In this document: positions 9,310 through 37,832 of the stretch, piece by piece
Numbering within the stretch: position 1 is the stretch's first letter
Layout: every line of letters begins with the position of its first letter
Origin: Anaerococcus hydrogenalis DSM 7454
GTDB taxonomy: Bacteria; Bacillota; Clostridia; Tissierellales; Peptoniphilaceae
NCBI RefSeq assembly: GCF_000173355.1
Contig: NZ_ABXA01000043.1
Span: forward strand, 1-64,000
Length of the DNA stretch: 64,000 bases
Reading direction: 5' to 3'
Position numbers and translations under genes: made by a program
The notes under the pieces: model-generated
What the model saw: only the letters and a program-made list of their open reading frames with translations
Database searches by the model: none
What the model was told of the DNA's origin: nothing

Positions 9310-9721
9310 TGGACCCAATATAAATATGCTCGGAATTAGAGAAAGAGAACTTTATGGAAACAAGACTTATAAGGATTTGATTAAATGCATAAAAGATTAC
9401 ACTGATGATAAGGATATAGAAATTGAAATCTACCAATCAAATTCTGAAGGACAAATTATAAATAAAATTCAAGAAGCTTACAAACTTTATGATGGCATAG
9501 TTATAAATCCTGCAGCCTACACCCACACATCAGTTGCAATCCTAGATGCCCTAAAAGCTGTAAATATTCCAACAGTAGAAGTTCATTTAACAGATGTTGA
9601 TAAGAGAGAAGAATTTAGAAAAATATCCTACGTTTCTTATTTTGCAAAAAAAACTATAAAGGGTAAGGGCTTTGAGGGCTATATAGAAGCAATTGATTAT
9701 TTAGAAGAAAATTTTAAATAG
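9290..9721 (+). CDS. aroQ: 3-dehydroquinate dehydratase, type II
   Basis: Third shikimate-pathway step, removing water from 3-dehydroquinate. Family motifs: INGPNINMLGIRERELYG at the N-terminus with the catalytic Tyr, QSNSEGQIINKI, INPAAYTHTSVAILDAL with the catalytic His, and VEVHLTDVDKREEFR. I place the start at ATG 9290, preceded by GAGGAG, rather than an earlier in-frame ATG at 9263 that would add nine atypical residues. It overlaps the end of the fusion gene by 20 bases and ends the aromatic operon. DAHP synthase and chorismate synthase are not in this window. Confidence 0.94.
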   Translation: MRILVINGPNINMLGIRERELYGNKTYKDLIKCIKDYTDDKDIEIEIYQSNSEGQIINKIQEAYKLYDGIVINPAAYTHTSVAILDALKAVNIPTVEVHLTDVDKREEFRKISYVSYFAKKTIKGKGFEGYIEAIDYLEENFK

Positions 9722-9737
9722 TAAATTTATTTTACAA

Positions 9738-9816
9738 TTGATAGATTTTCATTTAATATTATATTTGTGATAATTTAATCCTATCTTATTGATAAAAGTA
9801 ATAAAAAAGGTAGGAT
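9738..9816 (+). promoter_or_regulatory. Candidate promoter and stem-loop upstream of secA
   Basis: TTGATA (9738-9743) and TATATT (9760-9765) with 16-base spacing form a plausible promoter. Downstream is an inverted repeat ATCCTATCTT / AAGGTAGGAT (9778-9787 and 9807-9816) with a 19-base loop and no T tract. It could be an RNA hairpin in the secA leader or an operator. Function unknown. Confidence 0.45.
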
Positions 9817-9832
9817 ATACAGTGAATTAGAG

Positions 9833-12556
9833 GTGAAAGATTTGGCGTTATTAAATATATTTAAAACATTTAGTCAAAAAGAAATTGCCAACAACCAAAA
9901 ATTAGTTGACAAAATTTTAGCACTAGATGAAGACATGCAAAAATTAACAGATAAACAGTTACAAAATAAAACAAATGAATTTAAAGAAAGACTAAAAAAC
10001 GGAGAAAGTTTAGATGATCTTTTGGTAGAAGCATTTGCCACAGTAAGAGAAGCAAGTGACAGGGTTTTGGGTATGAAACATTATCCTGTGCAATTGTTGG
10101 GAGGCATTGTTCTACATAATGGACAAATAGCAGAAATGAAAACAGGAGAAGGAAAAACTTTAGTTGAAACTCTTCCTGCTTATTTAAATGCCCTTGACGG
10201 AAAAGGCGTCCATGTAGTTACAGTAAATGATTACCTTGCAAAACGTGACCAAGAGTGGATGGGAAAAGTTTATTCATTTTTAGGTCTTACTGTAGGTTGT
10301 ATTATTTATGGGCTTACAAATTCTGAAAGACAAAAAAATTATAACTGCGATATAACTTATGGTACAAACAACCAATTTGGTTTTGATTACCTAAGAGATA
10401 ACATGGTTATTTATAAGGATAATATGGTTCAAAGAGGACTTCATTATGCCATAGTCGATGAGGTTGACTCAATTTTAATAGATGAGGCAAGAACTCCACT
10501 TATAATTTCTGGAGAAGGTGATGAATCTACAGATACTTATAAAAAAGCCGATGAATTTATAAAAGGACTTGAAGGAAGAATTTTAGATCCAAATGAAGAC
10601 TTAGACCAAGATCCTTTTGATAGGGAATTTGTTGTAGAAAAAGTAGATTTCTTGGTAGATGAAAAAAGAAAATCATCAAACCTTACAGAACAAGGTACAG
10701 CTAAAGCTGAAAAATTCTTTGGTATTGAAAATTTATCAGACCCAGAACACTTAGAGCTTGCTCACTACATTAACAATGCCCTAAAAGCAAATACAACTAT
10801 GACAAGAGACATTGATTATGTTGTAAACAAGGGCGAGGTAATGATTGTAGATGAATTTACAGGTCGTATCATGCAAGGAAGAAGATACTCAGATGGTCTT
10901 CACCAAGCAATCGAGGCCAAAGAAGGAGTTGAAGTTCAATCAGAATCAAAAACCCTTGCAACAATTACCTTCCAAAATTACTTTAGGATGTATGATAAAT
11001 TATCAGGAATGACTGGTACTGCAAAAACAGAGGAAGAAGAATTTTCAGAAATTTATAACCTAGACGTTGTAGAAATTCCTACAAATAGACCAATCCAAAG
11101 AGTTGATGATGTAGACTATGTTTATATAAATGAAAATGGAAAATACAATGCAATAATTGAAGAAATTAAAAAAGTTCATGCAACAGGTCAACCAATCCTA
11201 GTTGGTACAATTTCAATTGAAAATTCTGAAAAATTATCAAATGCTCTTAAAAAAGAAAAAATTAAACACGTTGTATTAAATGCTAAAAATCACGAAAGAG
11301 AAGCTGATATTGTAGCACAAGCAGGTAGACTTAATTCTGTAACAATCGCTACAAACATGGCAGGTCGTGGTACTGATATTATGCTTGGTGGAAATGCTGA
11401 TCATATGGCGAAACAAAGACTTAAAAGAGAAGGAATTTCTGATGAATTATTAGAACAAGTAGACTCTTTCCAAGAAACAGACAACCAAGAAATATTAGAT
11501 GCAAGAAAAAAATATAAACATTATAAATCACTTGTAAAACCTGAAATTGATAAAGAAGCTAAAAAGGTAAGAGAAGTTGGTGGTCTTTATATAATTGGTT
11601 CTGAAAGACACGAGTCTAGAAGAATTGATAACCAATTGAGAGGACGTTCAGGAAGACAAGGAGACCCAGGAAAATCTAGATTTTTCATCTCATTAAAGGA
11701 TGATCTAATTAGATTAAATGTAGGAGAACAAATTTCTAAATTTGTAGAAAATTACAATTATCCAGAAGATGAACCAATTGTATCAAGAATGGTTACAAGA
11801 TCAATTGAAAAGGCTCAAACAAGAGTTGAAGCAAATAACTTTGCAACAAGAAAAAGAGTCCTCCAATATGATGATGTAATGAATAAACAAAGAACAATAA
11901 TCTATAACGAAAGAAAACAAGTTCTTTATGGAGAAAACATGAGAGATTCTATCTTATCAATGATAAAAGATTCAATTTCTCAAGCTGTATATTCATTTAC
12001 AAACCCACAAATTAAACCGGAAAATTGGGAAATGGTAGCCTTACTAAACCATTTAAAATCTATAGCAATCCCGGTTGAACTTTTAAGATTTGAAAATATT
12101 AACGATTATACCCAAGAAAAATTAATAGATTATATTTACCAAACAACCTTAAATAAATATGAAGAAAAAGAAAAACAATTTGGTGAAGATAATATGAGAG
12201 AAGTTGAAAGGGTAGTTCTTCTAAGAGTAATTGATACAAAATGGATGGAACACATCGATGCAATGGATCAAATGAGAAAAGAAATTGGTGTAAGAGCTAT
12301 GGGAAATGATGATCCTGTTCGTGCTTACACAAACTCTGGATTTGAAATGTATGAAGAGATGACAAATTCTATCCAAGAAGAAACTGTTAGACTTATGATG
12401 GGTGTTGAAATAAGACAAAATATTGAAAGAAAACAAGTCTTAAAACCTGATGAAGAAAGTGTTGAAAACGCAGAAAGTCCTGACCAAGCAACAAATAGGG
12501 CTGAAAGAAGAAGATTAAAAAGAGAAGCAAAAAAAGGAAATATTAAGGGTAATTAG
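9833..12556 (+). CDS. secA: Preprotein translocase subunit SecA
   Basis: The ATPase motor that drives secreted proteins through SecYEG. Walker A is in MKTGEGKTLVETLPAYLNAL and Walker B is at VDEVDSILIDEARTPLIISG. Also seen are TNNQFGFDYLRDNM, TNMAGRGTDIMLGG and LRGRSGRQGDPG. At about 907 aa it is full length, but it ends in a lysine/arginine-rich tail and lacks the C-terminal cysteine zinc motif seen in many SecA proteins. The frame opens with GTG at 9833. A TTG at 9842, five bases after AGGTGA, is an equally plausible true start. It abuts prfB directly. Confidence 0.96.
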   Translation: MKDLALLNIFKTFSQKEIANNQKLVDKILALDEDMQKLTDKQLQNKTNEFKERLKNGESLDDLLVEAFATVREASDRVLGMKHYPVQLLGGIVLHNGQIAEMKTGEGKTLVETLPAYLNALDGKGVHVVTVNDYLAKRDQEWMGKVYSFLGLTVGCIIYGLTNSERQKNYNCDITYGTNNQFGFDYLRDNMVIYKDNMVQRGLHYAIVDEVDSILIDEARTPLIISGEGDESTDTYKKADEFIKGLEGRILDPNEDLDQDPFDREFVVEKVDFLVDEKRKSSNLTEQGTAKAEKFFGIENLSDPEHLELAHYINNALKANTTMTRDIDYVVNKGEVMIVDEFTGRIMQGRRYSDGLHQAIEAKEGVEVQSESKTLATITFQNYFRMYDKLSGMTGTAKTEEEEFSEIYNLDVVEIPTNRPIQRVDDVDYVYINENGKYNAIIEEIKKVHATGQPILVGTISIENSEKLSNALKKEKIKHVVLNAKNHEREADIVAQAGRLNSVTIATNMAGRGTDIMLGGNADHMAKQRLKREGISDELLEQVDSFQETDNQEILDARKKYKHYKSLVKPEIDKEAKKVREVGGLYIIGSERHESRRIDNQLRGRSGRQGDPGKSRFFISLKDDLIRLNVGEQISKFVENYNYPEDEPIVSRMVTRSIEKAQTRVEANNFATRKRVLQYDDVMNKQRTIIYNERKQVLYGENMRDSILSMIKDSISQAVYSFTNPQIKPENWEMVALLNHLKSIAIPVELLRFENINDYTQEKLIDYIYQTTLNKYEEKEKQFGEDNMREVERVVLLRVIDTKWMEHIDAMDQMRKEIGVRAMGNDDPVRAYTNSGFEMYEEMTNSIQEETVRLMMGVEIRQNIERKQVLKPDEESVENAESPDQATNRAERRRLKREAKKGNIKGN

Positions 12557-13662
12557 ATGGCAGAAATTTATGAGTTAAGAGAAATCATTAAAGAACTTGA
12601 TAAAAATCTTAAAATGATTGGAGCTCATCTTGATCCTGATAATCTTTTTAAAGAAATAAAAAATATTGAAAAAGAAACCTTAAAAGAAAATTTTTGGGAT
12701 GATAGTCAAAAAGCCCAAGAAATTATGGCTGATCTTTCAGATAAAAAAGATGATTATAAAACTTTTATAAATTTAAAAGAGGAATTAGAAGATCAATCAG
12801 ATCTAATTGATATAATTGAAGAAACAAACGAAGAGTTAGATAGTTTAGTTGATGTAGAAAATTCTTTAAATATGTTAAAAAAGAAATATCATCTTTTAAA
12901 ATAAAAACTGAACTTGACGGAGAATATGATAAAAATAATGCATATATGGTAATTCATGCAGGCGCTGGTGGTCTTGAGGCTACTGATTGGGCAGAAATGC
13001 TTATGAGAATGTACACAAGATTTTTTGAAAGACGAAATTTTAAATTTGATATTACAGATTTAAACAATGAAGAAGCCGGTGGAATAAAGTCTGCAACTAT
13101 TCATATCAAAGGATCTTTTGCTTATGGATATTTAAAAGGAGAAAGAGGAGTTCATAGACTTGTTAGAATTTCTCCTTTTGACTCATCTAAAAGGCGCCAT
13201 ACATCTTTTGCATCAATAGATATTTTTCCAGAGCTAAATGATGATATGAGTGTTGAAATTGATCCTAAAGATTTAAGGATTGATACTTATAGGGCAAGTG
13301 GAGCTGGCGGCCAACACGTCAATAAAACTGATTCTGCTGTAAGAATTACCCATATTCCTACAGGAGTAATTGCCTCAAGTCAGGCTGAAAGAAGTCAAAC
13401 TCAAAATAAGGAAACTGCTATGAAACTTCTTTTAGCAAAACTTACTCAAATTAAGGAAGAAGAACATAGAGAAAAAATTGAAGATATTCAAGGAAACTAC
13501 ACCCAAATAGCATGGGGAAGTCAAATAAGATCTTATGTTTTTCATCCGTACACTTTGGTTAAAGATCATAGAACAAATTTCGAAGTTGGAAATGTAGAAA
13601 GTGTTATGGATGGAGATATTGATGGATTTATAGATGCATATTTAGCTAATAAGGGAGAGTAA
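12557..13662 (+). CDS. prfB: Peptide chain release factor 2, one frameshift at an A run
   Basis: RF2 releases the peptide at UGA and UAA codons. The peptidyl-hydrolase GGQ motif is in [21 protein letters not shown], and the anticodon-like domain precedes it. The frame breaks near 12896 where a short A run is one base too short. Adding one A gives [25 protein letters not shown] and a normal 368-aa protein. This is not the classical programmed site: around codon 25 the DNA reads CTT GAT in frame, with no CTT TGA C slippery stop. Autoregulatory frameshifting therefore seems absent. Co-transcribed with secA, as in many Firmicutes. Confidence 0.9.
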
Positions 13663-13702
13663 TAATCTTTCCCTTATTTTTTATTAAATAAAAGGAGAAA
13701 AA

Positions 13703-14800
13703 ATGAAAGATATAATATTAACCGGTGATAGACCAACAGGAAAACTTCACTTGGGCCATTATGTTGGATCTTTGAGAAATAGGGTTAAAATTCAAAATGA
13801 GGGAAATTATGACAAAATGTATGTTATGATTGCTGATGCCCAAGCTCTAACAGATAATTTTGATAATCCTACAAAAATCAGGGAAAATATAACTGAGGTT
13901 ATGCTTGATTATTTGTCAGTAGGACTTGATCCTGAAAAAGTTACATTTTTTGTTCAATCTTACGTAAAAGAACTTACAGAATTAACTTTTTATTTATTAA
14001 ATTTGGTAAGTCTGTCAAGACTTGAGAGAAATCCTACAGTAAAAAATGAGATTAAATCAAAAAATTTTGAGACAAGTCTTCCTACAGGATTTTTAATTTA
14101 CCCGGTAAGCCAAACATCAGATATTATTTTATTTGATTCAAATATAGTTCCAGTAGGAGAAGACCAAGAGCCTATGCTTGAACAAGCTAGAGAATTGGTT
14201 AGGTCATTTAACCATACTTATAAGGAAATTTTTAGGGAGCCTAAGGCTGTTATTCCAGAAAATAAAGTTTGTAGGAGACTGCCAGGAATTGATGGATCTA
14301 ATAAAATGAGTAAGTCCTTAGACAATTGTATTTACTTATCAGATTCTAAAAAAGAAGTGAAAAGAAAAGTAATGTCTATGTTTACAGATCCAGACCATAT
14401 CAAAGTATCTGATCCTGGAAAAGTTGAAGGCAATACTGTCTTTACTTACCTTGATGCTTTTTGTGAAGATTATCATTTCGAAAAATTTTATCCGGAATAT
14501 AAAAATTTAGATGAATTAAAAGATCATTACAGACGTGGGGGTCTGGGTGATGTTAAAATTAAGAAATTTTTAAATAAAGTTTTGGAAGATTTTCTAGAAC
14601 CAATTAGAGAAAGAAGAGCATATTACGCTAAAGATATTTCTAAACTATTTGAAATTATGGAAAATGGTTCAAAAGAAGCAAGTGCCTATGGTCAAAATAA
14701 ATTAAAACAAGTAAAAGAAGCTATGGGGATAAATTATTTTGATGATATAAATTTAATTTCTGAACTTCAAAAAAAATATGACCAAGAATATAATAATTAA
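13703..14800 (+). CDS. trpS: Tryptophanyl-tRNA synthetase
   Basis: Class I synthetase charging tRNA-Trp. The HIGH-like motif is in GDRPTGKLHLGHYVGSL near the N-terminus, and the KMSKS motif is in GSNKMSKSLDNCI. At 365 aa it is slightly longer than the usual 330-340. AAAGGAG lies upstream of the ATG. No T-box was found in the 40-base gap from prfB, so read-through from secA-prfB or a cryptic promoter may drive it. Followed by a strong terminator. Confidence 0.95.
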   Translation: MKDIILTGDRPTGKLHLGHYVGSLRNRVKIQNEGNYDKMYVMIADAQALTDNFDNPTKIRENITEVMLDYLSVGLDPEKVTFFVQSYVKELTELTFYLLNLVSLSRLERNPTVKNEIKSKNFETSLPTGFLIYPVSQTSDIILFDSNIVPVGEDQEPMLEQARELVRSFNHTYKEIFREPKAVIPENKVCRRLPGIDGSNKMSKSLDNCIYLSDSKKEVKRKVMSMFTDPDHIKVSDPGKVEGNTVFTYLDAFCEDYHFEKFYPEYKNLDELKDHYRRGGLGDVKIKKFLNKVLEDFLEPIRERRAYYAKDISKLFEIMENGSKEASAYGQNKLKQVKEAMGINYFDDINLISELQKKYDQEYNN

Positions 14801-14813
14801 ATTAAAAATTGTT

Positions 14814-14846
14814 AAAAAAGTGCGATTTTATTTGCACTTTTTTATT
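14814..14846 (+). terminator. Rho-independent terminator after trpS
   Basis: Stem AAAAAAGTGC / GCACTTTTTT around a ten-base AT loop, extending into a T-rich tract. The descending arm doubles as the -35 region of the next promoter. Confidence 0.85.
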
Positions 14847-14860
14847 TTTTGTCTTATAAT
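14832..14860 (+). promoter_or_regulatory. Promoter of the symporter gene, overlapping the trpS terminator
   Basis: TTGCAC (14832-14837), exactly 17 bases, then TATAAT (14855-14860). This is close to the vegetative sigma consensus and lies 76 bases before the start codon. Confidence 0.7.
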
Positions 14861-14935
14861 GAAAAGGTAGTCATGAAAAGAACTATATAAATTTTACATA
14901 ATAATATAGTTGAAAAAAGGAGTATTTAAATAAAT

Positions 14936-16186
14936 ATGAGTAAATCTGAAAAGAAAAAATTAGGTTTAATACCAAAATTATTGATAGCGATTGCCTTAGG
15001 TACTCTAGCAGGTTTATATTTACCAGAATGGTTTGTAAGAATTGCAGTTACATTCTCATCTATTTTTGGTGCATTTTTAAACTTTGTTATACCACTTATG
15101 ATTATCGCTTTTGTTACTAAAGGAATAGCTGACCTTGGAGAGGGAGCTGGAAGGTTACTTGCAGTAACAGTTCTTATTGCATACACTTCAACAATAGTTG
15201 GTGGATCCTTATCCTATTTGATGAGTTCAAATATTTTCCCAGCTTTTATAAGCCAAGACCAAGTTTCTAAAATTCAAGCTTCAAGTAAAATTGAAGTTAA
15301 TCCATTTTTTGAAGTGCCTATCACACCATTTTTTGATGTTACATCAGCAATTATTTTTGCCTTTATGATGGGAATTTCAATTTCTTGGTTAAGAAAACAC
15401 GGCAAGGGAGAATTTTCTTATGGTCTTATTGGGGAATTTAATGAAATAATTACTAAAGTTTTATCAACAGCAATTGTTCCATTATTACCATTTTTCATTT
15501 TTGGTAATTTCTCAAAAATGGCCTTTACAGGATCTGTTTTCGCAGTTTTATCAATATTCTGGAAAATTTTCATATGTGTAATTGCCCTCCACTTATTATA
15601 TGTATCTGCTTTATTTATAATAAATGGTGTTTACACAAAGAAAAATCCTCTTACATTAATAAAAAATCAAGTAAAGGGATATCTAACAGCTGTTGGTACA
15701 CAATCATCAGTTGCTACAATTCCAGTAAACTTAGAATGTGCTAAACAAAATAGCGTTAGTAAGGGAATAAGAGATTTTGTTATCCCTCTTGGAGCTACAG
15801 TTCACATGCCAGGATCAATGATTACAATCACAGCTTGTACATTTACAATCTTAACTATGTATGGAATGGATCATTCTTACCTATTAATGTTAAGATATAT
15901 GTCAATTTTAGGAATAGCAATGGTTGCAGCACCTGGAGCACCAGGTGGAGCTGTAATGAGTGCCCTACCATTTTTACCAGTTGTAGGAATTCCTTCAGAA
16001 GGGGAACTTGCATCATTATTGATCACACTTTATCTAACACAAGATTCATTTGGAACTGCAGCAAATATATCAGGAGATACAGCAATCTCTGTTGGTATAG
16101 ATAAGATCTTTAATAAACATATAGTTAAAAATAATGACTACAAAGACGGTTTCAATGATGAAATTATAAATGCTAAAGAAATTTAA
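14936..16186 (+). CDS. Dicarboxylate/amino acid:cation symporter (DAACS family)
   Basis: A 416-aa polytopic transporter. Family features: a run of N-terminal membrane helices, the serine-rich re-entrant segment GTQSSVATIPVNLECAK, the IPLGATVHMPGSM region, and the C-terminal APGAPGGAVMSALPFLP and SGDTAISVGIDK segments that form the substrate and cation sites. Family members import glutamate, aspartate, C4-dicarboxylates, serine or threonine with Na+ or H+; the substrate cannot be set from sequence. It has its own promoter and a bidirectional terminator, so it is monocistronic. Confidence 0.92.
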   Translation: MSKSEKKKLGLIPKLLIAIALGTLAGLYLPEWFVRIAVTFSSIFGAFLNFVIPLMIIAFVTKGIADLGEGAGRLLAVTVLIAYTSTIVGGSLSYLMSSNIFPAFISQDQVSKIQASSKIEVNPFFEVPITPFFDVTSAIIFAFMMGISISWLRKHGKGEFSYGLIGEFNEIITKVLSTAIVPLLPFFIFGNFSKMAFTGSVFAVLSIFWKIFICVIALHLLYVSALFIINGVYTKKNPLTLIKNQVKGYLTAVGTQSSVATIPVNLECAKQNSVSKGIRDFVIPLGATVHMPGSMITITACTFTILTMYGMDHSYLLMLRYMSILGIAMVAAPGAPGGAVMSALPFLPVVGIPSEGELASLLITLYLTQDSFGTAANISGDTAISVGIDKIFNKHIVKNNDYKDGFNDEIINAKEI

Positions 16187-16190
16187 TGTA

Positions 16191-16218
16191 AAAAACTAGG
16201 CAATAGCCTAGTTTTTTT
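16191..16218. terminator. Bidirectional terminator between symporter and histidine kinase genes
   Basis: Stem AAAAACTAGGC / GCCTAGTTTTT with an AATA loop. There are A and T tracts on both flanks, so it can serve the convergent genes on either side. Confidence 0.9.
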
Positions 16219-16222
16219 GTGC

Positions 16223-17341
16223 TCATTTTAATATTGGAAGGGAGATTTTTATAAGTGATCCCTTATCTATATTTTCAACTTTAATATTTCCACCATGAAT
16301 TTTTATTGTCTCCATAGCAAGGGATAGGCCAAGGCCTGATCCTTTTTCGTTTGTATTATTTATCCTATAAAAGGCTTTAAATATATTTTCTTTTTCTTTT
16401 TCATCTATGCCAATTCCGCTATCTTCTACAAAAATTTCTACAAAATCATTATTTATTTTTGAATAAATCTTTATGTATCCATTTTCTACATTATATTTTA
16501 TAGAATTTTCTATAAGATTATAAAAAACCCTATAGATTAAAGTATCATTAGCAAGGATATAGATTTCTTGGCACATATTTTGAATGCTTATATTTTTCTT
16601 ATCAGCAATAAATGATAAATCTTGAATAGCCTCTTCTATTAAGGAAGATAGCTCTATTTTTTCATTTCTTGAAACTGACCTTAATTCGCTTAAATCAAGC
16701 AGGCTTGTTACAAGTTTTGATAACCTGTCACTTTCAGTCTTTATCTTATCCATCAAATCCTTGGTTTCTTTTTCATCCATCTCGCTTTCTTCATAAAGGT
16801 CGATTTGAGAATTTATTATTGTAAGGGGAGTCCTTAATTCGTGGGCAGCCCTTGCTGTAAAATCTCTTTCTATTTCATAGGACTTATCGAGTCTTTCAAG
16901 CATTTGGTTGAATGTTTTGGTTAAATTTTCAAATTCTTTTATAGGGTTTTCCTTTACTTCGAATGAGGTCAGATTTTTAAGCTGAATTTGCTCGATTTGT
17001 TTAGAAAAATCATCTAAGGGTTGTAAAAATTTTCCACTTAGAAAATAAGAAATTAGCCCACCTAAAATAGTGATAAGGGATGTAATTAGCCAGGTTTTTT
17101 TTGTATAATTAATTTTTGTTGTATTTATTTGATTTGAAAAGTTATTTTCGAAATTTACTATCTTATCCTTATCTATATTTATATATAGGTCTTCATCTTT
17201 TACATTATCCACAAAGCCACCTAAGGAATCTATATAAAAATAAGCAGTCTTATTTGTGAAAAAGTTTAGACTAATACTTGTTAATGCTATTAGGATACTG
17301 GTAAGAATGGCAATCCTAAATCTTAATGATATTTTTTTCAT
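16223..17341 (-). CDS. Sensor histidine kinase (HAMP, HisKA, HATPase)
   Basis: A 372-aa membrane sensor. An N-terminal membrane helix, a short extracellular loop of about 55 residues and a second helix lead into a HAMP-like linker. The phospho-acceptor helix is AAHELRTPLTIINSQIDL. The ATP-binding domain shows NLIENSIKYN (N box), VEDSGIGIDEKE (G1) and GSGLGLSLA (G2). The response regulator gene lies just upstream and overlaps by four bases. The divergent thiol/FeS operon is the most likely target. The sensed signal is unknown; the small loop could detect redox or envelope stress. Confidence 0.93.
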   Translation of the reverse strand: MKKISLRFRIAILTSILIALTSISLNFFTNKTAYFYIDSLGGFVDNVKDEDLYINIDKDKIVNFENNFSNQINTTKINYTKKTWLITSLITILGGLISYFLSGKFLQPLDDFSKQIEQIQLKNLTSFEVKENPIKEFENLTKTFNQMLERLDKSYEIERDFTARAAHELRTPLTIINSQIDLYEESEMDEKETKDLMDKIKTESDRLSKLVTSLLDLSELRSVSRNEKIELSSLIEEAIQDLSFIADKKNISIQNMCQEIYILANDTLIYRVFYNLIENSIKYNVENGYIKIYSKINNDFVEIFVEDSGIGIDEKEKENIFKAFYRINNTNEKGSGLGLSLAMETIKIHGGNIKVENIDKGSLIKISLPILK

Positions 17342-18012
17342 TTAATTTTCCTCAATAAATACCCAACTCCAATCCTGTTTTCTATTGGATCATAATTTAA
17401 TTTATTCTTTAATTTTTTTCTCAAAGCAGAAATATGAACCCTAATAGAATTGCTCAATAAATCAACACTTGAATCCCATACGTGCTCTATTAATTCTTCC
17501 TGGCTAATTGGCCTTCCTTGGTTTAAAAGTAAATACTCTAAAATTCCTATTTCCTTACGAGTTAATTTAAGTTCTTCACCATCAACAAAAACCCTCCTAT
17601 TTTTGCTGTCAAATTCAATCTTATCAAAGGAAATTTCGCTATTTTTTTGGATAAAATTTCTTCTTGTAAGTGACCTTACCCTTGCCTTTAATTCATCCAA
17701 ATGAAAGGGCTTTTGCAAAAAATCATTGGCACCAGCATCAAGTCCTTCAACCTTATCTTTTATTTGACTTCTGGCTGAAAGAATTAAAACTTTGGTTTCC
17801 TCATCTTCTTTTCTTAAATTTTTCAAAATTTCCATCCCATCCATATGGGGAAGGTTCAAATCCAAAATTATTAAATCATAAGATTCAATTTCTATCATTT
17901 CCATAGCATCAATCCCATCAAAGGCTGATTCAACCTCATAACCTGATTTTTTTAAGGACTTATTTATGGTATCATTTAAAATTTGTTCATCCTCAACAAT
18001 TAAAATCTTCAT
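17338..18012 (-). CDS. OmpR-family response regulator
   Basis: A 224-aa two-domain regulator. The receiver domain has the acidic pair in VEDEQ, the phosphorylated Asp in LIILDLNLPHMDG, the switch region ILSARS and the conserved Lys in LQKPF. The C-terminal winged helix (LTRKEIGILEYLLLNQGRPISQEEL) binds DNA. It pairs with the following kinase gene. Its start is separated by about 100 bases from the divergent CXXC/FeS/thioredoxin operon, a common layout for a regulator and its target. Confidence 0.95.
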   Translation of the reverse strand: MKILIVEDEQILNDTINKSLKKSGYEVESAFDGIDAMEMIEIESYDLIILDLNLPHMDGMEILKNLRKEDEETKVLILSARSQIKDKVEGLDAGANDFLQKPFHLDELKARVRSLTRRNFIQKNSEISFDKIEFDSKNRRVFVDGEELKLTRKEIGILEYLLLNQGRPISQEELIEHVWDSSVDLLSNSIRVHISALRKKLKNKLNYDPIENRIGVGYLLRKIK

Positions 18013-18116
18013 AAGACCTCCTTTATAATAATTATAACAAAATAAAATAAAATAGATGTTAAGAAAATCTTAACAGAAAATTTATACCTAATCTGTTATC
18101 ATAAGTTTGTAAAGGG

Positions 18117-30496: not shown

Positions 30497-32120
30497 GTAT
30501 TTTTCTAAATTTCTATTAATTGAAAGAATAAAGATCACCAAAGTTTTTAATGGGATGGTTTATGGGATAAGAAAAATTCCCTTAATTGGAAAACACTTAG
30601 GAGATAAGTATTATTTTTACGATTTAAAAGAAATCATAAATACATTTGTTCCTATTTTTTCAATAATCTGGCAATTTATTAAATCAATTCTAACCTTTGG
30701 CTTTGCAATTTTTATTTCAAGGACTTTATTAAAGCTATTATTTGAGATTTCCGATAAATCTCCCTTGTTTTTTAGAGAAAATTTTGATTTAAGTCCAGGT
30801 GCAGTTCTTCTAACTTGTATTCCTTTTAGTTTTTATATATCAAATATGATTACATCATCATTATTAACTGATAATGGGAATGCTTTTTCTGATTTGAGTA
30901 AAAATTTTAATTTTTTTCCAAATGACTTGGCACATATATTTTTGTATTTAGAGCCATTTTTGATTTTTGTTGGAAGGACTTTGGGATTTATTATTTTTGG
31001 TAAAATTTTTGCAAATATAAATCCTATTTACACATTTTTATTTAGTCTTGGTATTTATTTTTATAATATAAATATTACGGGATTTTGGACAAAAATATAT
31101 GAAAAAAGAGAAAAACCATTTTTTGAAGATAGACCATTTTTACAAATTATTTTGATTTTAATTTTGGACTTGGCTATAAGTTTATTAGTTTTAATAATAA
31201 AACTTGATTTTAAAGTTTTAAGTCTTGGATTTTTCTTTATAAATTTAATTTTATTTCCCTTTGTTGTGAAATATTTTAAAAATTTCAAGGGCTATGACAA
31301 AATAATTGAAAAAACAATAAGGGTATATAAACTAGCGGTAGAAGATTCAAAAGATGTGCAAGAAAATGTTGTAAAAATTAAAAACAAGGATATAAATAAA
31401 AATGAAAAAATAAAGGGAGAAGGCTTTGTCTATTTAAATAAGTTATTTTTTAAAAGGCACAAAAGACATCTTTTAAAACCAACTTTAATAAAATCAGGAA
31501 TCTTTTTTGTCCTTGGAATTACAATATTTTTTATTTTATCAAGTCTAACAATGAAGAGCAAGGAAGTTTATAATATTTTAATATATGCAATACCTATAAT
31601 TTCATATATTTTATTTAAGCAAGATATAATTTTGATGGCTTTTTATAAAAATTGTGACTCATCGCTTTTATACTATAATTTTTATAGGGAAGATAAAAAT
31701 TTATTGAAAATGTTTTGGTTAAGATTTAATTCAGTTTTTAAACTTATGTCAATTCCTATGGGAGCTATGTTTATAATTTATATTGTTTTTGCAACAAAAT
31801 TTTTGACCAAAACTGATTTAAATTTATCATTACCAATTTTTTATATAGTATTAAATGCTATATTTTTTACAGTTTTGCCCTTGTTTCAATATTATATAAT
31901 TCAACCCTTTGACAAGGAAGGAAAACAAAAATCTGTAGTCTTAGTTTTAATGAACATGTTTTTGTATTATATATTTATATTTGGACTTCCAGCCTTGGCA
32001 ACAAAAATTGGAGAGATTAAATTTATGTTAATAATTTCAATTTTTATAATAGCCTTTGTAGGGCTAGCAAGTTTTTTAATATATAAATTTGCACCAAAAA
32101 CTTTTAAAATTAAGCAATAA
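30489..32120 (+). CDS. ABC transporter membrane subunit, large, uncharacterised
   Basis: A protein of about 543 aa with roughly 10-12 hydrophobic helices in two halves, separated by a charged cytoplasmic section near residues 270-330. I start at ATG 30489 (MSRYFSKF) because it overlaps the ATPase stop in the usual ATGAGTAG manner; the upstream in-frame ATG at 30465 lies deep inside the ATPase gene. No known permease family signature was recognised, but context makes it the partner of the ATPase. Followed by a terminator-like hairpin and a second palindromic element. Confidence 0.8.
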   Translation: MSRYFSKFLLIERIKITKVFNGMVYGIRKIPLIGKHLGDKYYFYDLKEIINTFVPIFSIIWQFIKSILTFGFAIFISRTLLKLLFEISDKSPLFFRENFDLSPGAVLLTCIPFSFYISNMITSSLLTDNGNAFSDLSKNFNFFPNDLAHIFLYLEPFLIFVGRTLGFIIFGKIFANINPIYTFLFSLGIYFYNINITGFWTKIYEKREKPFFEDRPFLQIILILILDLAISLLVLIIKLDFKVLSLGFFFINLILFPFVVKYFKNFKGYDKIIEKTIRVYKLAVEDSKDVQENVVKIKNKDINKNEKIKGEGFVYLNKLFFKRHKRHLLKPTLIKSGIFFVLGITIFFILSSLTMKSKEVYNILIYAIPIISYILFKQDIILMAFYKNCDSSLLYYNFYREDKNLLKMFWLRFNSVFKLMSIPMGAMFIIYIVFATKFLTKTDLNLSLPIFYIVLNAIFFTVLPLFQYYIIQPFDKEGKQKSVVLVLMNMFLYYIFIFGLPALATKIGEIKFMLIISIFIIAFVGLASFLIYKFAPKTFKIKQ

Positions 32121-32121
32121 A

Positions 32122-32139
32122 AAAGACCTAGTGGTCTTT
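32122..32139 (+). terminator. Terminator-like hairpin after the ABC operon, lacking a T tract
   Basis: Stem AAAGACC / GGTCTTT with loop TAGT directly after the permease stop. It runs into the palindromic element instead of a T run. A near-copy with a T run lies at 32311. Confidence 0.55.
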
Positions 32140-32314
32140 CAGGCTGTTGACAAGCTAAAAATTCGACCATTTCGACCGAGTGCAACGAGCGGAGAAATCT
32201 CATGAGATCTCTCCGTGCGTTCATTTCATTCACTTAGTCGAGATGGTATATAGCTTAATTTTTATTTTCAAATAAATTATTATCTACATTCATACTTTGT
32301 CTACACTCTGAAAG
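32136..32314. repeat. Second palindromic MITE-like element
   Basis: About 179 bp with terminal inverted repeats: left CTTTCAGGCTGTTGACAAG (32136-32154), right complement CTTTCAGAGTGTAGACAAAG (32295-32314). The arms contain matching CGACC/ATTTCGA-type blocks. The centre 32191-32214 is a 24-bp palindrome, GGAGA...TCTCC, with a single mismatch. No ORF. It sits between two almost identical terminator hairpins. The sequence is unrelated to the element at 29293. Non-autonomous transposable element is the best guess; the source transposase is not in the window. Confidence 0.62.
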
Positions 32315-32333
32315 ACCCGTTGGGTCTTTTTTT
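32311..32333. terminator. Terminator hairpin right of the second element
   Basis: Stem AAAGACCC / GGGTCTTT with loop GTT and seven T. It serves the ABC transcript and, on the other strand, partly the convergent DUF1232 gene. Confidence 0.85.
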
Positions 32334-32604
32334 ATTTATTTTCTTCTATATATTCAATTTTTTCCTTATTCATTACAGAATCAGGAATCATTTTGCTTGT
32401 TATATAAATTAAAAACGGAAGGACGATTGCATCATCCAAAATTCCAAAAAATGGAATCATATCATTTATCAAATCAGCTGGCATTACTGCATATAAAATT
32501 GCTCCAAGGCCTAAAAGTTTTGCAAGTTTTGGAGTATTTTTATCTTTCATAGCCCTAAAATATACTGGTATAAAATTTGTAATTTTTGAAAATTTATTTT
32601 TCAT
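32332..32604 (-). CDS. DUF1232 (YkvA-like) small membrane protein
   Basis: A 90-aa protein whose core, ALLGLGAILYAVMPADLINDMIPFFGILDDAIVL, matches the DUF1232 pattern of a hydrophobic helix followed by a P-x-D-x-I-D/N-x-(I/F)P motif and a second helix. The family function is unknown. Monocistronic, facing the second palindromic element. It is divergent from the macro-domain gene, with a shared 170-base AT-rich gap. Confidence 0.83.
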   Translation of the reverse strand: MKNKFSKITNFIPVYFRAMKDKNTPKLAKLLGLGAILYAVMPADLINDMIPFFGILDDAIVLPFLIYITSKMIPDSVMNKEKIEYIEENK

Positions 32605-32775
32605 TATTTCCCTTACTTTCTTTTTATATTAATTATTTTAACTTTCATTTTAATTATACTAGAAAATCTCTGTTTGTAAATTAAATATCTTAAAATTAAT
32701 TTTAAAAAAATCTTACAAGATTAGTATATTATGATTTTTTTAAATTTCAAGTTATAATATTATAAAGGAGTTTTT

Positions 32776-33267
32776 ATGACATTACAAGTAGTTGATATTG
32801 ATATTTTAAAATTAAAAGTTGATGCAGTTGTAAATGCAGCAAATGTTGATTTGATAGAAGGCGGAGGAATCTGTGGACAAATTTTTGAAAAAGCAGGAAG
32901 GGATAAGCTAAAAGAGGCTTGCCAAAAATTATCCCCAATAAAACCTGGCCAGGCTGTACTTACTGATGGATTTGATCTTTACCAAAAATATATTATACAT
33001 GCAGTAGGACCAATTTATAATGAACTTTACAAAGAAGCTTGCCAAAAAATTTTAGAAGATGCCTATAAAAATGCCTTAGAACTTGCAAAGAAAAATAAAA
33101 TAAATTCTATAGCTTTTCCCTTAATCTCAGCTGGAATTTATGGATATCCCGACAGGGAGGCTTTTATGATTGCAAAAAATACTATAGATGAATTTTTGAA
33201 AGAAAATAAAATGGATATTTACTTATCTACATATGGGAAGGATATGCTTTCTTTAATAATGGGATAG
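32776..33267 (+). CDS. Macro domain (ADP-ribose-binding) protein
   Basis: A 163-aa stand-alone macro domain. Motifs: DAVVNAANVDLIEGGGICGQIFEKAG (ADP-ribose loop 1), YIIHAVGPIY, and SIAFPLISAGIYGYPDREA (loop 2). Members hydrolyse ADP-ribosyl modifications or O-acetyl-ADP-ribose. The Asn in VNAANVD and the Gly-rich loop needed for hydrolysis are present. No ADP-ribosyltransferase is visible nearby. AAAGGAG site and a TATAAT at 32753-32758. Confidence 0.93.
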   Translation: MTLQVVDIDILKLKVDAVVNAANVDLIEGGGICGQIFEKAGRDKLKEACQKLSPIKPGQAVLTDGFDLYQKYIIHAVGPIYNELYKEACQKILEDAYKNALELAKKNKINSIAFPLISAGIYGYPDREAFMIAKNTIDEFLKENKMDIYLSTYGKDMLSLIMG

Positions 33268-33341
33268 ATTGAATTTTTTATTTACTTCTAGTATAAATAC
33301 TAGTGTAGAAAAGTTACAAAATTTAGGTTAGGAGTTTTTAA

Positions 33342-33470
33342 ATGAAAATTTTTAAAGCAATTAAAAATAGGTGGGAGAAGTTTTTAAAAAATTTAGCAGA
33401 AGAAAATAAAAAATCTTTTGGAGACCAAAAATTAGATTGTTGTACAATGAACAAAAAAGAATATAAATAA
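33342..33470 (+). CDS. LDCC-motif putative metal-binding microprotein
   Basis: A 42-aa frame with a strong TAGGAG site nine bases before the ATG and its own terminator. The N-terminal half is amphipathic and basic (MKIFKAIKNRWEKFLKNLAEENK). The C-terminal half has QKLDCCTMNKKEYK, with adjacent cysteines at 33-34. It fits the small LDCC-motif family I recall from Clostridia, presumed metal binding and uncharacterised. Good translation signals make it a likely real gene despite its size. Confidence 0.75.
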   Translation: MKIFKAIKNRWEKFLKNLAEENKKSFGDQKLDCCTMNKKEYK

Positions 33471-33499
33471 AAAAATGACCCGTGTGGGTCATTTTTTAG
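33471..33499. terminator. Bidirectional terminator between LDCC gene and wrbA
   Basis: Stem AAAAATGACCC / GGGTCATTTTT with loop GTGT. It directly follows the LDCC stop and also faces the convergent wrbA. Confidence 0.92.
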
Positions 33500-33503
33500 T
33501 GTC

Positions 33504-34094
33504 TTAATCTACAAGTTTTTTTGTAACTTCTACTACTCTTCTTGCTTGAGCTTTGACTGCATTTTCAATTTGGTTTGCAAACCCTTCATTTGTTGCAGTT
33601 CCACTTGCTCCGTAAGGATTTCCACCTTGAGCATAAATTGCATCATCAGTGTATCCAACTGGAACAATTATTGCTCCCCAGTGAGCAGCGCTTGTATAAA
33701 TTGTTTTTATGGTTCCTTCTTGTCCACCGTTATTATTTTGAGCAGAAGTCATTGCAGAAATTACCTTATTTGTCAATAGACCTTTAGCCCAAACTCCTCC
33801 TTGTCCGTCTAAAAAGGCCTTTAATTGGAAAGGAATATTTCCAAATCTTGTTGGTGCTGAAAAAATTATTGCATCAGCCCAAATTAAATCATCAGATGTG
33901 GCCTCTTTTATTTCTTTTGAATCTTCTAAATATTTTTTCCAAGCAGGATTGTTATCGGCTCCACTTTCATCAAGATATTCTTTAACCTTTAAAAGTCTAA
34001 CCTCAGCTCCGTTTTTTTCAGCTTCTTCCTTTGCCCATTTAGCCATCTGGAAATTGTGTCCGGTTTGTGAATAATATATAATTGCAAGTTTCAT
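33504..34094 (-). CDS. WrbA-like flavodoxin-fold NAD(P)H:quinone oxidoreductase
   Basis: A 196-aa flavodoxin-like protein. The FMN phosphate loop is YYSQTGHNFQMAKW, followed by the middle segment FSAPTRFGNIPFQLKAFLDGQGGVWAKGLLTNK and the flavin loop SAQNNNGGQEGTI, then GYTD and GGNPYGASGTA. These match WrbA-type quinone reductases, which carry out two-electron quinone reduction in oxidative stress. Monocistronic. Confidence 0.92.
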   Translation of the reverse strand: MKLAIIYYSQTGHNFQMAKWAKEEAEKNGAEVRLLKVKEYLDESGADNNPAWKKYLEDSKEIKEATSDDLIWADAIIFSAPTRFGNIPFQLKAFLDGQGGVWAKGLLTNKVISAMTSAQNNNGGQEGTIKTIYTSAAHWGAIIVPVGYTDDAIYAQGGNPYGASGTATNEGFANQIENAVKAQARRVVEVTKKLVD

Positions 34095-34253
34095 CTATTA
34101 CTCCTTTAATTTTTATTTCTACATCGTCTCTAGAAATATAACCAATTACAAACAAACTTAAACAATTACTTTTTATTTAACTTCTTTATTTAATGAAGTA
34201 AAGTAAATCATTTTATTTTTTGGGTAAATTAATAAAAAGAAAAGGAGGATTAT

Positions 34254-35186
34254 ATGGAATTAACTGAAAAATTTGAAAAAGACCAATGCAAAAATCCTGT
34301 AGAATATTCTATTATACATAAAGAAATTCCTATTAAAATGCCAGGGGATATGTGGGAGGCAATTTCTTATTTGTTGTGGTATGTGCCAGATATTTCTTCA
34401 ATCCAATCAAAATCAAACGAACTTATTTCAAATATGGAATACGATTATTATACTTTTATTGAAATAATGACCTATATGGATTTAAAAGATGAAGATTGTT
34501 TATTTACAGATAAAATTGATGAAAAACTTGCTGATGAATATAAAAAAAAGATTTGCACAAATTCACAAAAATTAATATTGACACAGTCTGATGGCGAAAC
34601 AAAAACAGAATCTTTATTAAGGCATATAAGAAATGCTATAGCTCATGGATCTTTTAATATTGTAGAGGATCTTATGGTTGGTTTTGATGAAAAAATCGTA
34701 GGTAAAGATTTAAGTAAGACAACTGCAATTTTTAAGATAAAGCCAAAAAATTTATTAAATGCTCTAAAAATGCTAAATGAAGATTTAACCAACCAAAAAC
34801 TTATTGCCAAGGCTTTAAAAAATACAAAATATTGGGTGGAACCTTACCAAGAAGGTTTCGAAAGAAGCAATAAATTTGATTTATTTGCCAAAAAAGATAA
34901 GAAAAAATATGCCATTGAAATTAGAAATTATAAGTCTAAAAAAGATATAGACAAGGGCTTTGCCAGAGAGCTTGCCCATAATTTTAAAAATTTAAAAGAT
35001 GAAAGAGTGAGGCCTGTTCTTGTAATCAACACTTCATTTTTAAAAGAAGAATCAAAAAATGAGTTAATTGCCTATGATGTTTTAATTTTGGATGTTAAAA
35101 ATATCAAAAAAATGTTAAAGGGAAGGGATATGATACGTGAAATAGAACAAGCTCAAACTTTGTACAAATATAAAAATAAAATTTAA
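34254..35186 (+). CDS. Uncharacterised protein with HEPN-like motif and PD-(D/E)XK-like C-terminus
   Basis: 310 aa, no family recognised outright. The central LLRHIRNAIAHGSFNI contains R126-N127...H131, the Rx4H motif of HEPN ribonucleases. The C-terminal third has KFDLFAKKDKKKYAIEIRNYKSKK: D209, then E222-I-R224, resembling the D...(D/E)xK core of restriction-type nucleases with Arg for Lys. Strands such as RPVLVINTSF and YDVLILDVKNI follow, as in that fold. Soluble, no signal peptide. It has its own AAAGGAGG site and a lone position among stress genes. It may be an RNase/DNase effector of a defence or toxin system (inference). Confidence 0.6.
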   Translation: MELTEKFEKDQCKNPVEYSIIHKEIPIKMPGDMWEAISYLLWYVPDISSIQSKSNELISNMEYDYYTFIEIMTYMDLKDEDCLFTDKIDEKLADEYKKKICTNSQKLILTQSDGETKTESLLRHIRNAIAHGSFNIVEDLMVGFDEKIVGKDLSKTTAIFKIKPKNLLNALKMLNEDLTNQKLIAKALKNTKYWVEPYQEGFERSNKFDLFAKKDKKKYAIEIRNYKSKKDIDKGFARELAHNFKNLKDERVRPVLVINTSFLKEESKNELIAYDVLILDVKNIKKMLKGRDMIREIEQAQTLYKYKNKI

Positions 35187-35322
35187 TTTTATAAAATATT
35201 AAAGATATAAAATTAAATTTTTAAATTATAGTTCTCAAATTATTTAATATTATTTTTAAAAAAATTGATTTATAAATGAATCGTAGTATAGTTACTAATG
35301 TAATAAAAATTTAGGAGGAAAA

Positions 35323-36396
35323 ATGACAGAAAAGTATAATGAAAAAAATTCTAGAAAAAACTCTAGTGAAATAAGAGAAAAAAGAAGAGAAAGGTACAAA
35401 GATGATTTTTCAAGAGATAATACAATATCTTGGGGATCAATCATAGCTGGGGCTGTTTCCTTTGCAGCTGTTTTTACAGTTTTAAGTTTAATTGTTGCAG
35501 CTTTAGGACTTGGAATATTTTCACCAAATAATGAAAATCCTATTTCATCAATGGGAATAGGAGTAGGAATTTCAACAGTTATAATTCTTATTATTTCCTT
35601 TGGAGTTTCTGGATTTATTTCTGGAGCTTTTTCAAAAGGACAATCTTTACTTCATGGATTTATGAGCTGGGCTTTATCAATTATTTTATTATTTGGTCTA
35701 GTAACTAGTATGGTTTCATCTGCACTTGGACTTGTTGGTTCTGCAACAAAAGCTGTAGCAAATACTGCAGGAGATGCTGTAGGAACTGTAGCAAGTACAA
35801 CAGCTGACGGGGCAGGAAATGTTCTTTCAAGCGTTGCTGATTCTATTAGTGGAGTTGACACAAAAGAACTTGAAAAAAATATCAATGATACTTTAAGTGA
35901 GACTGATGTTAAAGAATTACAACCAGAATATTTAAAATCTCAATTAGATGATTCTAAGGATGAAGTTTTAGAAGCAGGAAAGAAACTTTTAACAAACCCT
36001 GAAGATTCTGACAAGATTTTTGATGATTTATCAAAATCTTTAGAGAAAAAAGCAAAAGATATTACTGACTCAGTTGATAAGAAGACAATAAAAGATGAAG
36101 TTTACAAAAATTCATCCCTTTCTGCTGAAGAAAGTGACAAGGCTGTAGATAATATCTATGATGGAATGGATAAGGCATCAAAAGAAGCTAGCAAGCAAAT
36201 TGAAAATGCTAAAAATTCTTTAGAAGATGCTAAAAAAGATGCTAAAAAAATGGTTAAAGATGCAAAAGATGGGGCAGAATCTGCTACTAATAAAGCATCA
36301 GCAGGAGCTGTTTTAGTATTTTTATTCCTTCTTGTTGGTCTTGCAATAGAAATTTATTGTGCAAGAATAGGAGAAAGATACGTAAATAGTTTATAA
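35323..36396 (+). CDS. Uncharacterised membrane protein with long helical extracytoplasmic or soluble loop
   Basis: 357 aa. A charged Arg/Lys/Glu-rich N-terminus (about 1-35) precedes Gly-rich membrane segments (WGSIIAGAVSFAAVFTVLSL, a second at about 80-110, a third to about 140). Then come an Ala/Gly/Thr-rich stretch and a long Asp/Lys/Glu-rich helical region (about 180-325, with heptad-like Ala), and a last membrane helix (AVLVFLFLLVGLAIEIY). The middle resembles apolipoprotein/LEA-like amphipathic helices. Probably envelope or stress related; function not recognised. Its own ribosome site (AGGAGG) and terminator. Confidence 0.65.
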   Translation: MTEKYNEKNSRKNSSEIREKRRERYKDDFSRDNTISWGSIIAGAVSFAAVFTVLSLIVAALGLGIFSPNNENPISSMGIGVGISTVIILIISFGVSGFISGAFSKGQSLLHGFMSWALSIILLFGLVTSMVSSALGLVGSATKAVANTAGDAVGTVASTTADGAGNVLSSVADSISGVDTKELEKNINDTLSETDVKELQPEYLKSQLDDSKDEVLEAGKKLLTNPEDSDKIFDDLSKSLEKKAKDITDSVDKKTIKDEVYKNSSLSAEESDKAVDNIYDGMDKASKEASKQIENAKNSLEDAKKDAKKMVKDAKDGAESATNKASAGAVLVFLFLLVGLAIEIYCARIGERYVNSL

Positions 36397-36400
36397 AATA

Positions 36401-36434
36401 AAAAATCTTGAGAAAATTTTCTCAAGATTTTTTT
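36401..36434. terminator. Bidirectional terminator
   Basis: Perfect palindrome AAAATCTTGAGAAAA / TTTTCTCAAGATTTT with T tract on both strands. It overlaps the stop of the convergent pseudo-S41 gene. Confidence 0.9.
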
Positions 36435-37832
36435 ATTTTATCATATTTAAAACTTCTTTGTGGGGGGTCAGAGGAGTTTATTGTTTGATTATATTTTATA
36501 AATTTATCATCTTCATTTAAACTTTTTGAAGAATTAATTGATATTAAAAATCCAGAATGATCTAATTTGAATATATCTGACCTTAAATTATAAATTATTT
36601 CGTTTTGATTTTGATCTCCCTCAAAGCCATTTTTTACTATATAAGCATCAGCATTTGCCTTTAAAATACTAGCAAATCTTATAGGATCATTTTTCGTATT
36701 ATCGTTTGTTAGAATATATATTTTTTTATTTCCAATATCCTTATCTTTTTTTATATCGATTCTTATTTGATCATAATACATATAATAATCTTTGTTGATT
36801 TCCTTTGTTTCCTCTGGAAATTTTATAGACTGATTTTGCATGAAAGATGACCTAGTATTTAGCCTATCCTTATTATTTTTCATATAAGATAAACTTTGTT
36901 TTAATAAATTTCCCCTATAAAAAACCACCTTTTCTAATGTATAATCTTCATGGATTAGTAGGGGAAGAATTTCATTTGCATACTTATCATCTATTGAATC
37001 ATTATTAGATAAGTCTATAAAAATATTTTGTATATTTTGATTTTTTTGCAAAACTTCTTTTAATTTTTCCTTATCTTTATTGAGGGTGTTCGTATCAAAG
37101 TCTGGCCAATAAATCTCTAAGGTATTTTTATTTTCTTTTATTTCCAATCCTGTGTTTTCTAATTTTCTTCCTAAAAGTCTCTTGTACCTATTAACAACTT
37201 GAGCATCGCCCAAATTTTTTGCTCTAGGTGACTTATTTTTTTCCTTATAGTAAGGAAAGGTTAGTTGGTAAGTTTTTTTATCAAGTATTTTTGTCCTATT
37301 ATCTTTTAATATAGAAAGGTAGGATGAAATAATATCATAAAATTCTTGATCAGATTTGGAATTTTTAACTCTTTTTTTTGTAGATATCAGTTTGGTCAAT
37401 TAAATTTTTATAATTTTCCTCGTTATTATTGTCAATTGCATAATTTCTAATTATATAATCATTTAATTTGTTAAAATCAGATATTTTTTCAGCACTTGTA
37501 AGAGACCTATTTTCTGTATTTGTTACAAAAATATCCTTGGTAAGTGAATCCATTACCTGGTCTCTAAATTTTGGATAAGAATCTGACTTATATCTATTTA
37601 ATCTTTTGCTTATTGCACTTACAAGAAAAATTATTATAAAAATCAACAAGAGAAGAAGAATAATTCTCCTTCTCATATAAATTAATCTTTGATTTTTACG
37701 TCTTTTTTTCGATCTTTTTCTTATATTTGAATCTTTTGACCTGATTTTTATATCTTTTTTTCTAACTTTTGTATTTTTGTGTCTTGATCCAGACCTATTT
37801 TTATTATTTAATCTATTTTTTTTACTTTTCAT
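36422..37832 (-). CDS. Membrane-anchored S41-peptidase-like protein, probably inactive, one frameshift
   Basis: About 469 aa after removing one base from the T8 run at 37372-37379, where the frame breaks. A very basic cytoplasmic N-terminus of about 55 residues precedes one membrane helix (RIILLLLLIFIIIFLVSAI), then an extracellular part. The C-terminal segment IYILTNDNTKNDPIRFASILKANADAYIVKNG lines up with the S41 active-site helix, but the nucleophile position lacks Ser and the usual Lys motif is absent; SSDPP resembles the closing GIxPD motif. It lies downstream of a two-component pair on the same strand, so it may be a sensor partner or peptidoglycan-site scaffold (inference). Confidence 0.6.

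Follow-up and report, generated by a model that had tools for sequence, protein, structure and literature searches.

The window, i.e. the whole stretch of 64,000 nucleotides from Anaerococcus hydrogenalis DSM 7454 that was analysed, encodes on its plus strand (34254..35186) a protein of 310 amino acids in which a HEPN-like domain, whose RNx3H motif is invariant among relatives, and an Mrr-type PD-(D/E)XK fold are joined in one chain. Our analysis showed that this HEPN–Mrr gene is an old, vertically inherited gene of Anaerococcus and its relatives and no mobile cassette. We tentatively regard its product as a chromosomally resident two-domain nuclease which most likely serves as an innate anti-invader effector needing no antitoxin, this function being a prediction from the sequence. 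The main rival of this reading is a housekeeping RNase, beside which an HEPN RNase with a degenerate nuclease domain has to be named.

Domain structure and conserved residues

The gene was recognised by its open reading frame, which starts with ATG and is preceded at a distance of five bases by a GGAGG ribosome-binding site (34244..34248, plus strand) read from the sequence, by a family alignment of 66 rows and by purifying selection. For this alignment 95 open reading frames of relatives were collected, 69 of them distinct, and three of less than 250 aa (both halves of a split copy in L074, and L033) were dropped; five of the remaining rows belong to a divergent clade (L071, L075, L080–L082). 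Gene ends were taken from a simple ORF caller and the starts are approximate. The closest named relative, with 91% identity, was found in A. senegalensis, while sequence searches of NCBIfam, PHROGs and the PDB with the window protein gave no convincing match.

The preliminary description of this DNA had pointed to an RNAIAH motif at residues 126–131 (34629..34646, plus strand) and to a restriction-type nuclease core made of D209, E222 and R224, and both lie where they had been placed. R126, N127 and H131 are present in 66 of 66 rows, as are A130, G132, H22, L41, Y43 and P45, so that the R-x4-6-H pattern by which the HEPN superfamily is recognised exists as R126…H131 in every relative aligned. 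In 5,000 shuffles of the window protein the RNx3H motif arose in 0.7%, the looser R-x4-H in 11% and D-x(8–20)-[DE]-x-[KR] in 99.8%. A chance origin of RNx3H was rejected, given this rarity and its conservation in all rows. As nearly every shuffle holds it, the D…ExR motif is worthless on its own, and the reality of both motifs is decided by conservation and structure and not by their mere presence.

The N-terminal HEPN-like domain extends over residues 14–178 approximately (34293..34787, plus strand). In Pfam the window protein matches only PF18736 (pEK499_p136 HEPN), with 22 bits and thus below the cut-off of 26.6, and weak matches to the same family were obtained for 33 of 36 diverse relatives (best E 3.2e-5). 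Two HEPN-only proteins, encoded at L101 and L163, exceed the cut-off with 36.0 and 36.7 bits, and a profile of our N-terminal domain matched these two with an hhalign probability of 95.7% (E 1e-8). Judged by the sub-cut-off score together with this profile match, the domain is a relative of the PF18736 family and not a member of it. A Cas13e model was matched by 8 of the 36 relatives (best E 1.7e-4), which we attribute to HEPN similarity. Across 196 genomes of the class, PF18736 gave five weak matches, none of them above the cut-off.

An AlphaFold2 model of the full protein, built from an alignment of 17 sequences (mean pLDDT 80.4, pTM 0.74), contains in its N-terminal half the helices 31–43, 61–74, 90–98, 117–130 and 164–177 as well as a beta insert, and the RNAIAH motif ends the helix 117–130. 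No HEPN chain is found among the fold-search matches listed, which are taken up by the C-terminal domain. HEPN RNases generally must dimerise to build their active site.

For that C-terminal domain (residues 179–300; 34788..35153, plus strand) the fold search of the model finds the PD-(D/E)XK fold, with matches including the CRISPR ancillary nucleases Cdn1, Can2 and Card1 as well as restriction enzymes. The catalytic residues expected of this fold are present in the window protein as D209, E222 and R224, with R in place of K. D209, a putative metal ligand (34878..34880, plus strand), is D in 57 and E in nine of the 66 rows. E222-I-R224 (34917..34925, plus strand) forms the putative (D/E)xK element, position 222 being E in 53, D in 11, K in one and a gap in one row and position 224 being K in 43, R in 18, another residue in four and a gap in one. 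Because L034 has no second domain, 65 rows count for the nuclease triad, and the pattern D/E–D/E–K/R is intact in 60 of them. The preliminary description had staked its reading on at least one of the two folds being found and on the motif residues being conserved; a PD-(D/E)XK fold was found, the motif is conserved, and the proposed union of both domains in one 310-aa protein is supported.

It is possible, if doubtful, that the protein is an HEPN RNase whose PD-(D/E)XK domain has become, or is becoming, catalytically inactive and serves only as a DNA or RNA sensor or as a dimerisation module. Such a loss would agree with the five rows in which the triad is broken (L021 has K at 222, and L014, L085, L086 and L088 have H, I or L at 224), with the lower mean fraction of the top residue in the REase half (0.50 versus 0.59 in the HEPN half), with the R at position 224 of the window protein, and with PF04471 (Mrr_cat) not being among the matches of this protein at E <= 5. 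Against it stand the 60 rows with a complete triad and position 214, which is K in 65 and R in one of the 66 rows. In addition, selection is equally strict in the REase half: compared with six close relatives, dN/dS ratios, which are approximate since dS is about 0.8–1.6, amount to 0.057–0.091 for the HEPN half and 0.048–0.077 for the nuclease half (in a seventh comparison, with L012, dS was undefined in the nuclease half). Both domains are under purifying selection. With respect to PF04471 itself, for which the cut-off is 21 bits, the relatives L018, L096 and L081 reach 36.3, 21.8 and 17.8 bits.

Distribution and vertical inheritance

A profile of 17 sequences detected the HEPN–Mrr gene in all 31 genomes of the genus. 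Within the family 67 of 130 genomes, belonging to 13 of 39 genera, hold it, with no match in the other 63. Some of the matches in the family were flagged with internal stop codons and were counted as they stood, and the L087 copy (G425), which has an altered C-terminal end with gaps, was counted as present. In an even draw of the class, 15 of 391 genomes matched, of which ten belong to the family, one holds a full-length match outside it, situated on a 4.4-kb contig, and four hold partial ones. In a draw of the phylum 16 of 398 genomes matched, at full length in only two, both of them in the family.

Four genomes (G398, G402, G406 and G491) carry a second, more distant copy, and the first copy of G491 is broken up into two ORFs. 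These second copies form the divergent clade (L071, L075, L080, L081 and L082), which has the motif LLRCIRNxVAHGDF and is represented in G477 by the sole copy of that genome (L071). The divergent copy at L075 adjoins fragments that, by eye, resemble a DUF262-type protein.

No relative was found in the viral contig, phage or plasmid collections searched, and an origin from a phage, plasmid or prophage was rejected on these grounds. The pattern of mobile defence genes, i.e. location on mobile elements and patchy presence, is therefore not what is seen here, the gene being present in 31 of 31 genomes of the genus and in none of the phages, plasmids and viral contigs. Protein distances of HEPN–Mrr were correlated with those of a neighbouring histidine kinase (r 0.96) and a neighbouring response regulator (r 0.83), each over 30 loci, and neither value was reached in 2,000 permutations (0/2,000). 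In detail, one of the 31 loci had no kinase match, and for the response regulator an identity filter removed L119.

This inheritance is an argument for the view that the protein is a housekeeping enzyme of RNA processing or decay, with the Mrr-like domain as a nucleic-acid-binding or second nuclease part and Shango (see below) lying nearby by chance synteny, a view that we consider rather unlikely. The genus-core status, vertical descent and purifying selection would fit it, as would the presence of the gene, in chromosomal settings, in roughly half of the family, the tadA-like neighbours in several genomes, the position divergent from ribosomal-protein genes in others (both by eye) and the lack of relatives on the mobile elements searched. 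On the other hand, the 63 family genomes with no match mean that the gene is not essential to the lineage, the combination of an HEPN with a REase domain is otherwise typical of conflict systems (PMC3710099), and a BrxD/Shango gene is situated 2–12 kb upstream in 19 of the 31 genomes of the genus.

Genomic neighbourhood

In the window, a flavodoxin-like gene (by eye; 33504..34094, minus strand), assigned from its ORF and synteny, lies divergently between a macro-domain gene and the HEPN–Mrr gene. Downstream, after a gap of 136 bases, follows a membrane-protein-like gene (by eye, with no Pfam match above cut-off; 35323..36396, plus strand), which is retained at 30 of the 31 loci of the genus. 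Further downstream a gene on the minus strand (36422–37832) is split into ORFs of 325 and 155 aa by a frameshift or an assembly error; its counterpart in most same-genus loci is a single ORF of about 450–470 aa. A promoter and terminator scan yielded sites no more numerous than in shuffles.

In other genera the HEPN–Mrr gene is found beside rplM/rpsI-like genes (divergent in some), tadA-like genes or unrelated genes, as judged by eye. The tadA-like deaminase gene (by eye) is overlapped by 14 and 17 bases in L076 and L123, and in L077, L115, L137 and L138 it follows about 560–830 bases downstream.

The preliminary description had called the gene isolated from any antitoxin. This holds: no antitoxin-like gene adjoins it in the window, by eye, and no antitoxin-like partner is conserved across genera among 71 mapped loci. 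A type II toxin-antitoxin system with a fixed antitoxin was rejected, as no partner is conserved in these 71 loci and the macro gene is linked in part of the family only. An RNA antitoxin was likewise rejected, as a search of 32000–37000 against Rfam gave no match at E <= 0.1.

The macro-domain gene (32776..33267, plus strand; PF01661, E 1.9e-37), a linked neighbour about 1 kb upstream here, would be the controlling partner if the HEPN–Mrr protein were the toxin of a two-gene system, which we judge very unlikely. In all 16 same-genus genomes with a full-length copy the macro gene lies upstream on the same strand, in eight genomes of the genus it overlaps the HEPN–Mrr gene or sits within 21 bases of it, its product gave a weak match to the DarG profile (E 2.8e-4), and Macro genes are listed with the pEK499_p136-like HEPN family (PMC3710099). 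However, 15 of the 31 same-genus genomes hold the HEPN–Mrr gene without a full-length macro gene. Outside the genus linkage was found only in genus g5, where 10 of the 12 genomes compared have the macro gene linked on the opposite strand; in the 17 other genomes compared it is more than 100 kb away or on another contig. For the macro and BrxD linkage counts the best macro match per genome was used and macro genes of genomes lacking the HEPN–Mrr gene were left out, distances were measured from match edge to match edge, and a sub-cut-off BrxD match (G475) was excluded.

At L184 a sugar-transport and transketolase-like cluster (by eye; 8849–18108) lies between the macro and HEPN–Mrr genes, and such a cluster is located directly upstream of the HEPN–Mrr gene in A. 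obesiensis and A. vaginalis ATCC 51170 (L184, also L007 and L010).

The survey of neighbours for defence genes that had been suggested in the preliminary description turned up a BrxC/D-family ATPase (PF10923) in 19 of 31 same-genus genomes, or 18 of 27 when the count is limited to genomes of at least 90% completeness. In all 19 the BrxD-type gene is on the strand of the HEPN–Mrr gene and precedes it by 2.2–12.0 kb. It belongs to a module of a TerB-like protein, an ATPase and a helicase which PADLOC identified as Shango (SngA 3.5e-16, SngB 1.3e-140, SngC 1.1e-172); PADLOC was applied to SngB and SngC of L112 and SngA of L128, the other loci being tied to these by BLAST or by the BrxD family search. 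Shango acts against phages and consists of three genes, whose products have TerB, ATPase and helicase domains (PMC10250203); no description of its mechanism was found in the consulted part of that paper. Module loci are L128, L130, L131, L134, L136 and L177–L183. In five genomes SngC ends 3, 48, 49, 49 and 167 bases before the HEPN–Mrr gene. In the other mapped loci the stretch in between holds an ABC-transporter/two-component-like cluster (by eye), the macro gene or the gene of a transglutaminase-domain protein, with two additional opposite-strand genes in two of seven further Shango maps.

No BrxD match was obtained in the other 12 of the 31 genomes (nine of the 27 at least 90% complete), among them the window's own assembly, which is 84% complete, and seven genomes of other genera have BrxD and lack the HEPN–Mrr gene. 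Membership of Shango was therefore rejected, and PADLOC has no model for the HEPN–Mrr protein. As all 19 cases fall within one genus, the linkage counts as a single evolutionary event and not as 19, and the BrxD/Shango module apparently is a fixed, vertically kept defence locus whose chromosomal position is constant in 19 of the 31 genomes.

One of the two HEPN-only relatives, the 171-aa protein of L101 (5325–5840), is encoded immediately ahead of a large gene that resembles a type I restriction subunit (by eye) in an R-M-like cluster that also holds a recombinase-like gene (by eye). A second, weaker HEPN-only relative lies near R-M-like genes at L100 (by eye).

Relation to known systems and predicted function

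Fusions of REase-fold domains to HEPN families have arisen on multiple independent occasions (Anantharaman et al. 2013, PMC3710099). With the pEK499_p136-like HEPN family (PF18736) described there the window protein shares R-N-x3-H and, from about residue 29 to 144, similarity at profile level, and R-M and Macro neighbours are reported for that family too. The neighbours given in its table row are R-M, ART, Macro, NamA-like and Pgl, and this row holds no REase fusion. Whereas the two relatives that pass the PF18736 cut-off are HEPN-only proteins of 171 and 183 aa, the window protein carries a fused Mrr-type domain. That domain resembles, in the model, the Mrr_cat and other PD-(D/E)XK restriction endonucleases (PF04471; structure 1y88) in its fold and in the positions of D…(D/E)xK, and L018 and L096 exceed the Mrr_cat cut-off; it differs in having an HEPN domain ahead of the nuclease and in missing the full triad in five of 65 rows. 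The EC042_2821-type fusions (PMC3710099), compared by description only, likewise place a REase-fold domain after an HEPN domain in one chain, but they belong to another HEPN family, have extra wHTH/Zn-ribbon domains and occur in R-M operons. Shango is a genomic neighbour of HEPN–Mrr in 19 of 31 same-genus genomes, but our protein is no component of it, being kept in the 12 genomes with no BrxD match.

The claim that such a protein had not been described can consequently be retained in part. The HEPN–REase fusion as a kind is known, and as far as the literature searched goes, the combination of a pEK499_p136-related HEPN with an Mrr-type nuclease, which is absent from the consulted part of PMC3710099, and its status as a core gene are undescribed. 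The corresponding part of PMC9122126 holds nothing on an HEPN–Mrr fusion, and our literature search found no paper pairing HEPN with Anaerococcus and a single one that names pEK499_p136.

The proposal of a single-gene effector or defence protein is plausible with regard to the Shango linkage and to the HEPN-only relative in a restriction cluster (by eye), and fits less well with a vertically inherited genus-core gene that was not found on mobile elements. Several observations support defence: the RNx3H motif in 66 of 66 rows, the triad in 60 of 65, the PD-(D/E)XK fold and the low dN/dS in both halves, together with Shango, the HEPN-only relatives near R-M-like genes (by eye) and the lack of a conserved antitoxin-like neighbour. 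So do the R-M, ART, Macro and Pgl neighbours of the earlier survey (PMC3710099) and the HEPN RNases counted among auxiliary modules of BREX-type systems in a 2026 survey (PMC12839542). Unlike typical mobile defence genes, however, the gene is present throughout the genus, its distances track those of adjacent chromosomal genes and no relative was found in the viral, phage and plasmid collections searched. Its varied contexts in other genera, the missing PADLOC model, the 12 genomes with no BrxD match, the seven BrxD genomes without the gene and the single event behind the one-genus linkage also speak against defence. On balance, HEPN–Mrr is probably a built-in nuclease defence, as predicted from its sequence.

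As such a defence effector the protein would dimerise via its HEPN helices. Its Mrr-like domain would bind or cut DNA that is abnormal for the cell, be it invading, damaged or modified, and recognition or cleavage of this DNA would release the HEPN RNase, which might then cut host or phage RNA so that growth stops. Toxicity would be controlled inside the protein itself, and such control would explain the absence of an antitoxin. The ties to Shango and to the macro gene may reflect membership of an old, fixed defence neighbourhood that may have been lost in part by some members of the genus, this genome probably among them. A bolder version, which we consider unlikely, is that this fixed, antitoxin-free RNase/DNase is a genus-wide inborn immune effector in which the Mrr-like sensor unleashes HEPN and which backs up, or originally served with, the Shango system upstream.

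Defence genes are commonly regarded as mobile and patchily distributed, yet HEPN–Mrr has the parts of suicide and restriction nucleases and the inheritance of a housekeeping gene. With these parts, core inheritance and no antitoxin, how the cell tolerates the protein becomes a clear and testable question, and the steady link to Shango makes it a candidate partner effector. If the reading as an inborn immune effector is true, HEPN–Mrr would be a defence gene that has turned into part of the core genome.
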